The translations under genes and the position numbers were made by a program. From Geminicoccaceae bacterium (GTDB lineage: Bacteria; Pseudomonadota; Alphaproteobacteria; Geminicoccales; Geminicoccaceae): DNA of 39,901 nt. Each line of letters opens with the position of its first letter. Within the stretch, counting starts at the first letter, position 1. The DNA lies in NCBI GenBank assembly GCA_007694015.1, contig RECO01000311.1, positions 1 through 39,901 of the forward strand, given 5' to 3'. The notes below the pieces were generated by a model. That model did not search any database and had not been told where the DNA came from. It saw only the letters and a list, made by a program, of their open reading frames with translations. Below, piece after piece: positions 183 to 5,410 of this stretch.

Positions 183-821
183 ATGCGCCAACGGCTTCTC
201 GTGATTTCGGTGGCCCTGCTGCTCGCCGGTTGCACCGCCTTTGGGGTGCGCTCCGGCACCGAAGAGCCGCCGTTCGAAGTGTTGGCGGCCCTGGACGGGT
301 CGACCGAGATTCGCCGCTATGGCCCAAGGCTCGCCGCCGAGACGGCGGTCGCGGCCGAGCCCGGTGCGCGCAACGCCGCCTTTCGCGTGCTCGCCGGCTA
401 CATCTTCGGCGGCAACCAGGGCGAGCGCCGGATCGCCATGACGGTGCCGGTCGAAACCCAAGAGCCCGGCCAGCGCATCGCCATGACGGTGCCGGTCGAG
501 GTGGACGAGGCGACGGGCGAGTTGCGCATGCGCTTTTTCCTGCCGAGCGAGTTCACCCTCGACACGGCTCCTTTGCCCAACGATCCGCGCGTGACGCTGG
601 TCGAGCTGGAGCCCACCACGGTCGCCGTCCGCCGCTTTACCGGCTCCACCGCCAACACCGCCGTCGCTCTCGAAACCACAGCACTTCTGGCGGCGCTCGA
701 CGGCAGCCCCTGGGTCGCCCTTGGCGAGCCCGTCGCCTATTTCTACGACCCGCCCTGGACCCTGCCGCCGGCCCGCCGCAACGAGGTGGTGGTGCCGGTT
801 ACCCGACGCGACGAAAGCTGA
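183..821 (+). CDS. SOUL family haem-binding-like lipoprotein
   Basis: This 212-residue protein belongs to the SOUL/HBP family, whose members bind haem or hydrophobic ligands. The N-terminus is a clear lipoprotein signal: a basic MRQR start, a hydrophobic run, then the lipobox LAGC with the lipidated Cys at residue 17, so the protein should be anchored in the envelope. The family hallmark IAMTVPV occurs twice, about 18 residues apart, followed by MRFFLPSEF, which is typical of SOUL domains. The frame stays open further upstream, but ATG 183 is chosen because the signal peptide begins there and it lies past the terminator at 126-150. It is a single gene that converges on the DMT transporter across a bidirectional terminator. 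The family call is strong. Haem binding itself is not shown by the sequence. Confidence 0.85.
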   Translation: MRQRLLVISVALLLAGCTAFGVRSGTEEPPFEVLAALDGSTEIRRYGPRLAAETAVAAEPGARNAAFRVLAGYIFGGNQGERRIAMTVPVETQEPGQRIAMTVPVEVDEATGELRMRFFLPSEFTLDTAPLPNDPRVTLVELEPTTVAVRRFTGSTANTAVALETTALLAALDGSPWVALGEPVAYFYDPPWTLPPARRNEVVVPVTRRDES

Positions 822-836
822 ACGCCTCCGAAAGTA

Positions 837-887
837 GCACCGGCGGAGCCGGTGCCGGGGGTTGCGAAGGGGGCCAAAAGCCCCCTT
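837..887. terminator. Two hairpins between convergent genes
   Basis: Two perfect 8-bp stems lie side by side: GCACCGGC/GCCGGTGC (837-855, 3-nt loop) and AAGGGGGC/GCCCCCTT (867-887, 5-nt loop). The second has A and T runs on either side, as expected of a bidirectional terminator. It would serve the SOUL gene on the plus strand and the DMT/bta operon on the minus strand. Confidence 0.7.
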
Positions 888-902
888 CCCCTACCTCGTC
901 CC

Positions 903-1808
903 TCAAACCCCCTGCAGCACCAGGATCAGCCCGACGACCAGGAGGGCGAGGCCTGCCAGTTCGCAGATCGTCGGGGTTTCGCGGAAGATGCGGCGGGCGA
1001 GGAGTTGGGCGAAGAAGATTTCGACGAGGCCCAGGGTGCGGACGGCGGCGACGTCGGTGAGGGCGAAGGCGAAGAACCAGAGCTGGGAGGCCAAGGCCCC
1101 CATGAAGCCTGCCAGGAGCGACGGCCGCCAGCGGACGCAGACGGCTTGGACGACGCCCGGCTGGCTTTGCCAGAGCACGAGGGTCATGACCACCGCTTGC
1201 AGGGTTTGCGCAACGACCAGGGCGGTGCTGGCCTCCAGGAAGCCGGGCGTCTCGGCGAGGGTGACGATGCCGCCCTTGTAGCCGACGGCGGCAAGCGCGA
1301 AGAGGGCGGCGGCACCGGTGCCGAGCAGCGCGGGCATGGTGGTGTCGCGGCGCACCAAGGAGGCCGTGGGGGGCGGCCAGGCGAGCACGGCGACACCCCA
1401 GGTCGCCGCCACGACGCCCGCCACCATGACCAGCGTCGGCACTTCGGCGAGAAAGGCGACGGCGAACAGCAGCACCAGGACGGGCTCGGTCTTGGTGAAG
1501 GCGGTGGCGACGACGAAGGAGCGCAGTCGCATTGCCTGCAGCATGAGCGCGGTCGCCAACACCTGGGCCAGAGCGCCGAGCCCGATCCACAGGATGGCCC
1601 AAAAGCCCGGCAGGGGCGGCAGGCGGCCGAAGACGAGCGATGCCAGGAGCAGGAAGAGGACGGCGAAGGGCAGGCCGAAGAGGAAGCGGACGAGCGTTGC
1701 CCCCCAGGTGCCGACCTCGGCGGTGAGGCCCTTTTGCGCGGCGTTGCGGATGGTCTGGGCGGCCGCCGCACCGACGGTAACGAAGGCCCACAGATACGCG
1801 CCGATCAA
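903..1808 (-). CDS. DMT (EamA) family transporter, last gene of the bta operon
   Basis: This 301-residue integral membrane protein has about ten hydrophobic helices in two EamA-like repeats, as usual for the drug/metabolite transporter superfamily. Substrates in this family range from amino acids and nucleotide sugars to lipid-linked sugars (the ArnE/ArnF type), so the substrate cannot be read from sequence. The start is a TTG at 1808 (TTG ATC GGC), with only a weak Shine-Dalgarno sequence. It lies 13 nt after the btaB stop, which suggests translational coupling and transcription with plcP-btaA-btaB. The context allows a role in moving a lipid-synthesis precursor or a lipid intermediate, but that is inference. 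The two hairpins at 837-887 would end the transcript. Confidence 0.8.
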   Translation of the reverse strand: MIGAYLWAFVTVGAAAAQTIRNAAQKGLTAEVGTWGATLVRFLFGLPFAVLFLLLASLVFGRLPPLPGFWAILWIGLGALAQVLATALMLQAMRLRSFVVATAFTKTEPVLVLLFAVAFLAEVPTLVMVAGVVAATWGVAVLAWPPPTASLVRRDTTMPALLGTGAAALFALAAVGYKGGIVTLAETPGFLEASTALVVAQTLQAVVMTLVLWQSQPGVVQAVCVRWRPSLLAGFMGALASQLWFFAFALTDVAAVRTLGLVEIFFAQLLARRIFRETPTICELAGLALLVVGLILVLQGV

Positions 1809-1821
1809 GGGTGGCGGCCGA

Positions 1822-2490
1822 TCATTGCGCCACGCGGTCGGGGGGCAGGCGGTAGGTCATCAGCTGGGCGTAGCCACCCGCCAGTTCCTGGAAGTCGAGC
1901 GCTGCACCATCGGCGGCACGCCGCTCGGCGAGGCGATCGTGGGCCGCGCTCGAGGGATGGACGTGAAAGCTTTCGAGCCACCGCACGAGCAGCCAACGCA
2001 GGGGTGCCGGCAAGCCTTGCATGACCCCGAAATCGACCACGTGCAGCCGGCCGCCCGGTGCGAGGGCGGCCACGGCGCTGTCGATCGCGCCTGTTGGATC
2101 GTCGAACATCGACAGGGAGTAGGAGAAGACGATGCGATCGTAGCCCTCGGGCCGGTCGAACAGGACCCGCTCGATGCCGGTGCCGGCGAGGCCGAAGGCG
2201 AGGCGGATGCGGTCGTCCAGCCCCGCCTTCGCCACCTTGGCGCGGCCCACCTCGAGCATGGCGTCGGCGGCGTCGAAGCCGTAGAGCCGGGCCTCGGGGT
2301 AACGCTCGGCGATGACGATCAGGTTGCGGGCCGTGCCGCAACCGATCTCCAACAGATGCTCCTCGGGGCCGAGGTCGAGTTCGCTGATCAGCCGGTCGCG
2401 GCCCCAGAGGTAGTATTTGCGGCTGGCGTCGTAGATGTGCCGCTGCCAGCGGTACATCCGCTCCATCCGCACCGCAGCATCGGCGGTCAT
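1822..2490 (-). CDS. btaB: BtaB-like SAM-dependent N-methyltransferase (betaine lipid synthesis)
   Basis: This is a 222-residue class I methyltransferase. Motif I is LLEIGCGTARNL, an acidic residue follows in GFDAADAML, and SLSMFDD and APGGRLHVVDFG match later motifs of the fold. The N-terminal stretch MYRWQRHIYDASRKYYLWGRD is typical of BtaB and related lipid methyltransferases. BtaB trimethylates the homoserine nitrogen of diacylglyceryl-homoserine (DGHS) to give DGTS. The start at 2490 lies 4 nt after the btaA stop, so the two genes are translationally coupled. A longer open frame upstream overlaps btaA and is not used. The family assignment rests on both the sequence and the btaA neighbour. 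On its own it could be mistaken for a phosphatidylethanolamine methyltransferase (PmtA-like). Confidence 0.88.
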   Translation of the reverse strand: MTADAAVRMERMYRWQRHIYDASRKYYLWGRDRLISELDLGPEEHLLEIGCGTARNLIVIAERYPEARLYGFDAADAMLEVGRAKVAKAGLDDRIRLAFGLAGTGIERVLFDRPEGYDRIVFSYSLSMFDDPTGAIDSAVAALAPGGRLHVVDFGVMQGLPAPLRWLLVRWLESFHVHPSSAAHDRLAERRAADGAALDFQELAGGYAQLMTYRLPPDRVAQ

Positions 2491-2494
2491 CGGC

Positions 2495-3703
2495 TCAGGC
2501 CAGCTCGTAGAGGTGGAAGCCGCCGTAGATCGCCGAGCGGTCGGCCCGGAAATAGGCCTTGCTGTCGGCTTCGTGGTAGTGCCACCGCGCCAGGAGTTCG
2601 GGTGGCAGGTTGCCATCCAGGCACGAAGCGGCACCCGCGGTGCGGAAGATCACCTTCGCTCCCGGCCGCGCCGTCCGGGTGACTTCCTGCCAGAGCGCGG
2701 TCATCTGGGCCGAAGTCATCCAGTCCTGGGCGTCGAGGAAGACGTAGCGGTCGTAGCTCGCGTCCGGCTCGCCTTGGAGGTGGGTGACGAGGAGCGTGTG
2801 CAGGATTTGGACGCGACCGGCGCGCGGCTTGATCCGCTCGTAGACCGGCTCCTTCAGATAAGGCGGCACCGCCTTGCGCCGTTCGAGGTCGTAGCGGCGG
2901 CCGAAGGCCTGCCAGGCGAAGTAGTTGTCGTCGAGGTCGAAGTCGCAGGCGAGCCGGCGCACCCGCTCGCGGATTTCCTTGGCCGGGTCTTCGCTCTCGG
3001 CGTGCAGGGCGCGGTACTGGGCCGGCGGGATGCCGAGGCCGTAATAGGCGGCGCGCGACTTGGCCAGCTTGCGGATGGTCCGCTTTTCGAAGATCGGCGC
3101 GACGTGGCGGTCGAACAGATGGTGCTGCTCTTCGCGGCTCTTCGCCTTCAGGATCGACTTGGGCCGCCCGCCAAGCAGCCGTGCCGTGACGTGGCCCGCC
3201 TTGATGGTGCGGCCCAACAGCGAGCGGCGATAGAGACCGCGGCGGAACAGGTTGATGCGCCGGCCCTGCAACAGGTCGCGCTCGTCCCAATGCGCCCGTG
3301 TCTCGGCGTCCAGGTGCGGCCGCAGATGGCGGTCATAGGCCCTGACATTGGCCTCGTCGGCGCCGTGGCCGAAGAAGCGGAAGAAGGTCTCGTGGTCCGG
3401 CAGGTGCTGCAGCCCCGCCAGCTTCAGGCGGCTGAGGGCGACGTGCGCGGGGTTGAGGTCGACCGCGGTGATCCCGGCCGGATCGCCGTCCAGATAGTTG
3501 AGCACGTTGCAGCCGGCCGACGCGATGGTGAGGATGCGCTTGCCCTCGAGCGGGGCCATCGCCGCCATGTCGACGACCGGGTCCTCCCAAATCTGGTTGT
3601 AGACGAACCCGTCGAACGACCAGGTGAATAGCCGCTCGGCCAAGCGGTCGCGGCGCCGCGCCGGCTTGGTCAGCGCCGCGTCGCGCAACAAGCTGTTCCC
3701 CAT
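2495..3703 (-). CDS. btaA: BtaA, diacylglyceryl homoserine synthase (DUF3419)
   Basis: This 402-residue protein matches the DUF3419/BtaA family, which transfers the 3-amino-3-carboxypropyl group of SAM to diacylglycerol to form DGHS. Visible features are the N-terminal FVYNQIWEDP, the SAM-binding segment ILTIASAGCNVLNYL followed by AVDLNPAHVAL, the central Arg/Lys-rich region, and a C-terminal LDAQDWM block of a second Rossmann-like region. The start is ATG 3703, with GAGGA 7 nt upstream. An open frame continues upstream across plcP, but that extension is only overlap. The gene begins 38 nt after the plcP stop and ends 4 nt before btaB. The order plcP-btaA-btaB places the diacylglycerol-producing step directly before the diacylglycerol-consuming one. 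Confidence 0.93.
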   Translation of the reverse strand: MGNSLLRDAALTKPARRRDRLAERLFTWSFDGFVYNQIWEDPVVDMAAMAPLEGKRILTIASAGCNVLNYLDGDPAGITAVDLNPAHVALSRLKLAGLQHLPDHETFFRFFGHGADEANVRAYDRHLRPHLDAETRAHWDERDLLQGRRINLFRRGLYRRSLLGRTIKAGHVTARLLGGRPKSILKAKSREEQHHLFDRHVAPIFEKRTIRKLAKSRAAYYGLGIPPAQYRALHAESEDPAKEIRERVRRLACDFDLDDNYFAWQAFGRRYDLERRKAVPPYLKEPVYERIKPRAGRVQILHTLLVTHLQGEPDASYDRYVFLDAQDWMTSAQMTALWQEVTRTARPGAKVIFRTAGAASCLDGNLPPELLARWHYHEADSKAYFRADRSAIYGGFHLYELA

Positions 3704-3741
3704 CCTCGATCCTCGATAGCGCCGCGGGCGAGCCGGGCAGG

Positions 3742-4497
3742 TCAGCGATAGGCGTGGAGATGCACCCCGCTCGCGTCGACCGTGGCGAGGTGCGACGGCG
3801 TGCGGGTCCAGCATCCGGTGTTCACGTACTCGATCGTCGTGCTGTCGACCACCGCCCGCTCGTGCAACGCCTCGTGGGTGTGGCCGCAGAAGATCACGTC
3901 GACCCGTTCCTCGGCGGCAAGTGCCAGGGCTCCGGCGCGGACGGTGCTCGTCAGGCGGCGGCGCGGGTTGCGTTTGCCGACCCATTTGCGGCCCTTGTGC
4001 CCGACCCGGAGAAAGCGTTGCGACACGCCCAGCAGGCGGCCACCGAGGTCGGAGAGGACCGGGTGGCGGGTCAGCAAGCGGTCGAAGCCGTCGCCGTGGA
4101 TGGCCAAGTACTCTCGCCCATGTTGCTGCCAGGCGTAGCGCTCGTGGACCTCGACCCCCATCAGATGCGAGGCGACCTGGGCGGCCTTGCGGTCGTGATT
4201 GCCGAGCACCCAGATCAGTTCCACGCCCAGCTTGGGGTGCGACAGCTTGCGGATGTGGGACAGAAAGTCCCAATGGTCGGCGCGGAGGCGACGAAAATCC
4301 AGATCGTGGAAGATGTCACCCAGGAGGACGAGCCGGTCGAACTGCCAAGTCTCCAGCGTGCGCAACAAGGCCCCGGCGCGGCAGGCCGGCAGACCCAGGT
4401 GAACGTCGGAGAGAAGGAGGGTTTCGGTCTGGTGGACCGGGGGACGCTCGAAGCGATCCACGTTGGATCGCTCGGTGTCCAGGCTGATGTCGTTCAC
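3742..4497 (-). CDS. plcP: PlcP-like metallophosphoesterase (phospholipase C) of the bta operon
   Basis: This 251-residue calcineurin-like metallophosphoesterase belongs to COG2908, the family that holds LpxH and the phosphate-stress phospholipase C PlcP of Sinorhizobium. Motifs run in order: SDVHLG (30-35), GDIFHD (60-65), GNHD (99-102), HGDGFD (134-139), CGHTH (204-208) and NTGCW (226-230), so the two-metal site is complete. The GTG at 4497 is chosen because GGGAGG lies 6 nt upstream. An ATG at 4557 would add 20 residues but has a poorer site. Known PlcP proteins split phosphatidylcholine into diacylglycerol and phosphocholine under phosphate limitation. Placement directly before btaA-btaB supports PlcP over LpxH, which normally sits with lipid A genes. 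The substrate is inferred. Confidence 0.82.
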   Translation of the reverse strand: MNDISLDTERSNVDRFERPPVHQTETLLLSDVHLGLPACRAGALLRTLETWQFDRLVLLGDIFHDLDFRRLRADHWDFLSHIRKLSHPKLGVELIWVLGNHDRKAAQVASHLMGVEVHERYAWQQHGREYLAIHGDGFDRLLTRHPVLSDLGGRLLGVSQRFLRVGHKGRKWVGKRNPRRRLTSTVRAGALALAAEERVDVIFCGHTHEALHERAVVDSTTIEYVNTGCWTRTPSHLATVDASGVHLHAYR

Positions 4498-4579
4498 CGC
4501 GAACCTCCCGCGGGCAAGGCCAACGAGGTGCGTTAGCGCCGCGACGACGCACTGCATAGCCCTTTTCGGTGAAGGATCG

Positions 4580-4597
4580 ATGACAACCTCAAGGCAG
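4580..4597 (-). promoter_or_regulatory. Candidate Pho box upstream of plcP-btaA-btaB
   Basis: Read on the minus strand, the site is CTGCCTT-GAGG-TTGTCAT. The PhoB consensus is CTGTCAT-N4-CTGTCAT. The half-sites match at 5/7 and 6/7 positions with exact 7-4-7 spacing, and the site is oriented towards plcP, about 80 bp before its start. A -10 element is not obvious. PhoB control of plcP and btaAB is known in other alphaproteobacteria. Confidence 0.5.
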
Positions 4598-4624
4598 AGG
4601 AACCAAAGCCGCACTGGACAAATT

Positions 4625-4639
4625 TTGGAATGATTCCAA
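4625..4639. promoter_or_regulatory. Perfect 7-1-7 dyad upstream of the ZIP transporter, Fur-family-like
   Basis: TTGGAAT-G-ATTCCAA is a perfect 7-bp inverted repeat around one base, ending 30 bp before the GTG start of the ZIP gene. The AAT-N-ATT core and 7-1-7 spacing resemble operators of Fur-family metal regulators (Fur, Mur, Zur), though the outer bases differ from the published consensus. It sits in the divergent space shared with plcP. Confidence 0.4.
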
Positions 4640-4669
4640 CTTTCGACGGCATCGGAAGGATGCTCGCTC

Positions 4670-5410
4670 GTGACCGAACCCACCGTCCTCCTCGTTTTCA
4701 TCGCCGCCCTGATCACCGCCATCGCCACGGGCTTCGGCGCGCTGCCCTTGTTGTGGGCGCGCGCGGTCGAGGGGCGCTGGCTGGCGCTCGGCAACGCGGT
4801 GGCGGCGGGGCTGATGTTGGCCGCGTGCTACAGCCTGATCGTCGAAGGCTTCGCGTTCGACGCGCCGCGCACGCTCGCCGGTCTGGTCTTGGGCGTGGTG
4901 CTGATCGTCGTCGCCAGCCGCTACCTGCACGCCCATGACGGCATGACCATCGCCCAGGTGCAGGGGGCGGACGCCAAGAAGATCCTGCTCATCGTCGGCA
5001 TCATGACGGCGCATTCGGCGGCCGAGGGCGTCGGCGTGGGCGTTGCCTATGGCGGCGGGCGCGAGCTCGGCGACTTCATCACCATCGCCATCGCCCTGCA
5101 CAACGTGCCCGAGGGGCTGGCGATTGCGCTCATCATGGTGCCGCGGGGTGCTTCGGTCTTGGCCGCTGCCGGCTGGAGCGTTTTTTCCAGCCTGCCGCAG
5201 CCGCTGTTGGCGGTGCCGGCGTTCTTGTTCGTGCTCGCCTTCGAGCCGTGGCTGCCGGTGGGCTTGGGCCTTGCTGCCGGGGCCATGCTCTGGATGGTGT
5301 TCTCGGAGCTGCTGCCCGAAGCGAGCGAAGCGGTGAAGTCCGAGACCGTCGGCGTGGTCGTTACGCTCGCCTTCACGGCGATGCTCGCCGTGACCCTGCT
5401 GCTGCATTGA
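4670..5410 (+). CDS. ZIP family divalent metal transporter
   Basis: This 246-residue inner-membrane protein has about eight hydrophobic helices. It carries both ZIP signatures: HSAAEGVGVGVAYG in one central helix and LHNVPEGLAIAL in the next, whose His, Asn and Glu residues form the metal path. ZIP proteins import zinc, iron or manganese; the exact metal is not evident. The start is GTG 4670 with GGAAGGA about 9 nt upstream; an ATG at 4660 is out of frame. The gene diverges from plcP, with the dyad at 4625-4639 in the space between them. Its last 38 nt overlap the convergent acetyltransferase gene. Confidence 0.85.
   Translation: MTEPTVLLVFIAALITAIATGFGALPLLWARAVEGRWLALGNAVAAGLMLAACYSLIVEGFAFDAPRTLAGLVLGVVLIVVASRYLHAHDGMTIAQVQGADAKKILLIVGIMTAHSAAEGVGVGVAYGGGRELGDFITIAIALHNVPEGLAIALIMVPRGASVLAAAGWSVFSSLPQPLLAVPAFLFVLAFEPWLPVGLGLAAGAMLWMVFSELLPEASEAVKSETVGVVVTLAFTAMLAVTLLLH

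Follow-up and report, generated by a model that had tools for sequence, protein, structure and literature searches.

Three adjacent genes on the minus strand of a 39,901-nucleotide stretch of DNA from a Geminicoccaceae bacterium (the window) very likely convert membrane phospholipid to a phosphorus-free betaine lipid. It is probable, in our judgement, that they constitute a compact operon in which phospholipid is replaced by DGTS through the action of a PlcP-like phosphoesterase of a distinct clade, BtaA and BtaB. Because a plcP-btaA-btaB cluster was published in 2016 (PMC4796936) the arrangement itself is not new, and the worthwhile result is the phosphoesterase clade represented in the window (the window type) and its exchange with canonical PlcP.

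Layout of the cassette and identity of BtaA and BtaB

The cassette and its surroundings contain the following features.

903..1808, minus strand: EamA-type permease (EamA, 48.5 bits); perhaps a fourth gene on the same transcript, but not conserved
1822..2490, minus strand: BtaB, N-methyltransferase, 222 aa (methyltransferase models; likeness to S. meliloti)
2495..3703, minus strand: BtaA, S-adenosylmethionine:diacylglycerol 3-amino-3-carboxypropyltransferase, 402 aa (DUF3419, 344 bits)
3742..4497, minus strand: calcineurin-like phosphoesterase, 251 aa (Metallophos, 36.7 bits); separate clade, probably PlcP-like in role
4580..4597, minus strand: Pho-box-like site CTGCCTTGAGGTTGTCAT (11/14 consensus positions, weak evidence)
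4670-5410, plus strand: ZIP-type transporter, divergent from the cassette

The phosphoesterase gene has a GTG start with GGGAGG just 5' of it, and is separated from btaA by 38 nt (3741-3704); btaA and btaB are 4 nt apart (2494-2491). The first-pass annotation had the coordinates, strand and spacing of these genes right, and the tight linkage that it described is upheld both by the two gaps and by recurrence of the order in related genomes. The three genes may share a single transcript, which the first-pass annotation took to allow a fixed stoichiometry; scans of positions 800-4800 for promoters and terminators found nothing. The EamA-type permease gene begins 13 nt past btaB, and related loci have no counterpart in the flanking sequence available, which in L024 extends 2.7 kb beyond btaB; it was therefore rejected as a fixed fourth gene of the cassette. 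The divergent ZIP-type metal transporter gene recurs at the three most closely related loci (L011, L018 and L024).

BtaA uses S-adenosylmethionine to convert diacylglycerol to DGHS, which is methylated by BtaB to DGTS. In the window, the metal-dependent phosphoesterase would strip the phosphorylated headgroup from a phospholipid to give diacylglycerol, BtaA would add to this the 3-amino-3-carboxypropyl group of S-adenosylmethionine, and BtaB would methylate the resulting DGHS. The first-pass assignments of the latter two genes hold, and the route from diacylglycerol through DGHS to DGTS is supported by what is known of the families. BtaA matches DUF3419 over nearly its full length (344 bits against a cut-off of 28.2; model positions 7-384 of 385) and is 50-55% identical to BtaA of many alphaproteobacteria. 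BtaB is matched by several methyltransferase models in a Pfam scan, and is 48% identical over 207 residues to the methyltransferase encoded directly after btaA in S. meliloti CP090106. The same adjacent order of btaA and btaB is found there, with BtaA about 51% identical, but plcP (near 2.07 Mb) and btaA (near 2.46 Mb) are about 390 kb apart, in line with the separate loci noted for Sinorhizobium, whereas the window phosphoesterase gene adjoins btaA.

A closer parallel in gene order is available. Sebastian et al. (2016; PMC4796936) described six plcP contexts in marine bacteria, and in their type 1 context, which includes Phaeobacter sp. MED193, btaA and btaB are downstream of plcP. MED193 produces betaine lipid under phosphate shortage, and work with mutants showed that this remodelling requires PlcP. 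MED193 and the window have in common the order phosphoesterase-btaA-btaB and the putative product, DGTS, but the MED193 phosphoesterase was identified by its homology to S. meliloti PlcP, whereas that of the window falls in a separate clade, a contrast that we draw from the published description (PMC4796936).

A phosphoesterase clade distinct from canonical PlcP

The window phosphoesterase scores above the cut-off for Pfam Metallophos (36.7 bits; cut-off 21.5) and also for Metallophos_2, and contains all of the motifs of the calcineurin-like superfamily (D.H, GD, GNH, H and GH.H). In the form SDxHLG, GD, GNHD, HGD and GHTH these metal motifs are invariant among 15 window-type sequences. Canonical PlcPs belong to the same superfamily, with the same metal motifs, a similar length and, in some genomes, a btaA partner (L066, L092). 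The window protein is only 27% identical to S. meliloti PlcP, which we take to be the product of the phosphoesterase gene beside sinI (L104), presumably SMc00171. A C-terminal GDW.ES motif that is invariant in eight PlcPs is absent from the window phosphoesterase, which has GCWTRTP at that position.

Two profiles, A2 from the 15 window-type sequences and A3 from the eight canonical PlcPs, separate the types cleanly. Window-type sequences score 315-372 bits on A2 and 60-83 bits on A3, and nearly all full-length canonical PlcPs score 84-112 bits on A2 and 298-480 bits on A3, the exceptions on the canonical side being L003 (75 and 168 bits), L134 (97 and 196 bits) and the partial L135 (77 and 235 bits). 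In a tree built without fragments (a 31-residue fragment, L113, was left out), all 16 window-type sequences lie on one side of a branch with 99% SH-aLRT support, with E. coli LpxH belonging to neither group. Judged by its sequence, the window phosphoesterase is thus a member of a separate clade and no orthologue of S. meliloti PlcP. The first-pass annotation had called it PlcP-type; that description survives for the likely role but not for orthology, and 'PlcP' names what the protein probably does rather than what it is. It is most likely a divergent PlcP-like enzyme tied to btaAB. A literature search, with subscription journals mostly outside its reach, found no description of the window-type clade.

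Distribution of the two phosphoesterase types

The first-pass annotation had proposed a search of other genomes for the same gene order, and we examined 31 genomes of the window's order, all of one family and some of them incomplete. BtaA is present in 17, and in 15 of these a window-type phosphoesterase gene is upstream of btaA on the same strand, a recurrence which indicates that the linkage is more than chance. The next gene is btaB in all 15 but G004, where the contig breaks off within btaA; the btaA of G013 is spread over two frames. None of the 15 has a match at canonical PlcP scores, the window's own genome having the weaker L003 (168 bits). The remaining two BtaA genomes, G019 (464 bits) and G027 (428 bits), have canonical PlcP and no window type, with btaA, btaB and plcP side by side in G019 and plcP elsewhere in G027. 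The BtaA of G027 groups with that of the window (95% in the BtaA tree) though it is accompanied by canonical PlcP. One phosphoesterase type or the other is therefore found in 17/17 genomes with BtaA and 1/14 without it (Fisher p 7e-8, for genomes that are related rather than independent and in some cases incomplete). Distances among the three proteins are also correlated (r 0.92-0.95), but we discount this because shared ancestry alone yields such correlations.

The sole genome with either phosphoesterase type and without BtaA is G024, in which a window-type gene (L167, 4415-5257, plus strand) is located between gapA and pgk and no btaA was found in the genome; the protein may have another role there, or btaAB may have been recently lost or missed. 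The cassette itself adjoins the ZIP gene in the window, G011 and G012, and is placed between gapA and pgk in G022, G023, G025 and G026 (loci L157, L158, L159 and L164), where it may be transcribed with the glycolytic genes. The same order in different settings suggests that the cassette moves, or is kept, as a unit.

Outside the family the picture is different. Across 385 alphaproteobacterial genomes, matches to the window type of more than 300 bits are confined to the window's family and all others score 110 bits or less, and a sample of 398 genomes of the phylum yielded no further window-type phosphoesterase. Canonical PlcP is present in 31 of 36 BtaA-bearing alphaproteobacteria outside the family, compared with 106 of 345 without BtaA (p 1e-10), and the window type in none of the BtaA-bearing ones sampled. 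We also surveyed 80 btaA loci from named genomes, which were picked by similarity and so are not a fair sample. A window-type gene is upstream of btaA in one (L024, on the same contig as G011), canonical PlcP is directly upstream in two (L066 and L092), and canonical PlcP and a glycosyltransferase are near btaA in three (L052, L076 and L080). These few cases suggest that tight linkage, though known, is uncommon outside the window's family.

Other PlcP-like genes were seen next to glycosyltransferase genes. At L003 in the window's genome (G000:C245, 707-1957 and 1765-3192, minus strand) a more PlcP-like phosphoesterase gene directly follows one for a family 4 glycosyltransferase, a pair similar to the plcP-glycosyltransferase context known from the literature. 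On plasmids of Fuscovulum, Pannonibacter and Gemmobacter (L168, L170 and L172), PlcP-like genes are directly before a 'ceramide glucosyltransferase' gene, and are annotated as UDP-2,3-diacylglucosamine diphosphatase.

Role of the phosphoesterase, phosphate control and implications

The simplest role for the window phosphoesterase is as a source of diacylglycerol, because it accompanies BtaA and because, where BtaA genomes of the order lack it, canonical PlcP is found instead; it would presumably act as a phospholipase C. Several observations run against this reading. One is the phosphoesterase without btaAB in G024, and another is structural: the solved structures closest to the predicted one (pLDDT 88) are those of LpxH, which is a pyrophosphate hydrolase and not a phospholipase C. 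A phmmer search of the PDB with the single window protein gave no match, and the window-type profile reached LpxH. The PDB search yielded no PlcP structure, so LpxH may come out closest simply because its structure is available.

According to another reading, which the first-pass annotation had itself raised, the protein serves the genome as its LpxH in lipid A synthesis, and its place beside btaAB has other reasons; we consider this highly improbable. The protein and LpxH have an overall fold and metal site in common, and relatives of the window protein carry the UDP-2,3-diacylglucosamine diphosphatase annotation in public records, but identity in the structural matches is 19-26%, and LpxH has GNRD where the window type has GNHD. 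On the LpxH equivalog model the protein scores 22.5 bits, where the cut-off is 134; LpxI, which covers the lipid A step, is encoded in the genome (148.9 bits; cut-off 25); and the gene is missing from 13 of the 14 related genomes without BtaA, which is unfitting for a lipid A gene. On these grounds – LpxI, the low score and the distribution – we set the LpxH reading aside. Less improbable, but still unlikely, is action on some other phosphorylated lipid, either as an LpxH-like pyrophosphatase (converting CDP-diacylglycerol to phosphatidate, for example) or as a lipid phosphate phosphatase, these two forms together being what we judge unlikely; the link to btaAB would then reflect general glycerolipid supply rather than phospholipase C. 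The distance of the clade from canonical PlcP, LpxH as the closest among both solved structures and profile matches, and G024 are all in accord with this, but the exchange with canonical PlcP among BtaA genomes, the GNHD that the window type shares with PlcP, and the possible bias in solved structures noted above argue against it. We therefore favour the phosphoesterase as a PlcP-like supplier of diacylglycerol, although it counts against this that the second phosphoesterase, L003, could be the supplier in the window's genome.

Whether the cassette responds to phosphate is a separate matter. The Pho-box-like site is on the same strand as the operon, about 100 bp upstream of it, and none of 200 shuffles of the 300-bp upstream region reached its score; PhoB is present above its cut-off, and the plcP-btaAB system already described reacts to phosphate deficiency (PMC4796936). 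All of this would fit a phosphate-starvation response. However, chance alone would produce about one such site in every 40 kb, and none is present upstream of the cassette in the window's two closest relatives. Phosphate control has no backing from conserved Pho boxes. Constitutive synthesis of the betaine lipid, or synthesis on a non-phosphate cue, in place of starvation-induced remodelling is a minority possibility that we take seriously, and the placement among genes of central metabolism (gapA and pgk) in four genomes is in its favour.

Within one alphaproteobacterial family, the window type would stand in for the canonical PlcP of other BtaA-bearing alphaproteobacteria. We tentatively suggest, at somewhat less than even odds, that a separate enzyme family came to feed BtaA independently of PlcP, became dedicated to betaine lipid in this one family and took over from canonical PlcP there, perhaps acting on another phospholipid. 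Environmental surveys rely on PlcP as an indicator of lipid remodelling, and strict canonical cut-offs (1e-40 in PMC4796936) probably miss the window type, such that makers of betaine lipid would be undercounted. The exchange of two phosphoesterase types beside related BtaA proteins in a single family also offers a natural comparison for the substrate determinants of these enzymes.
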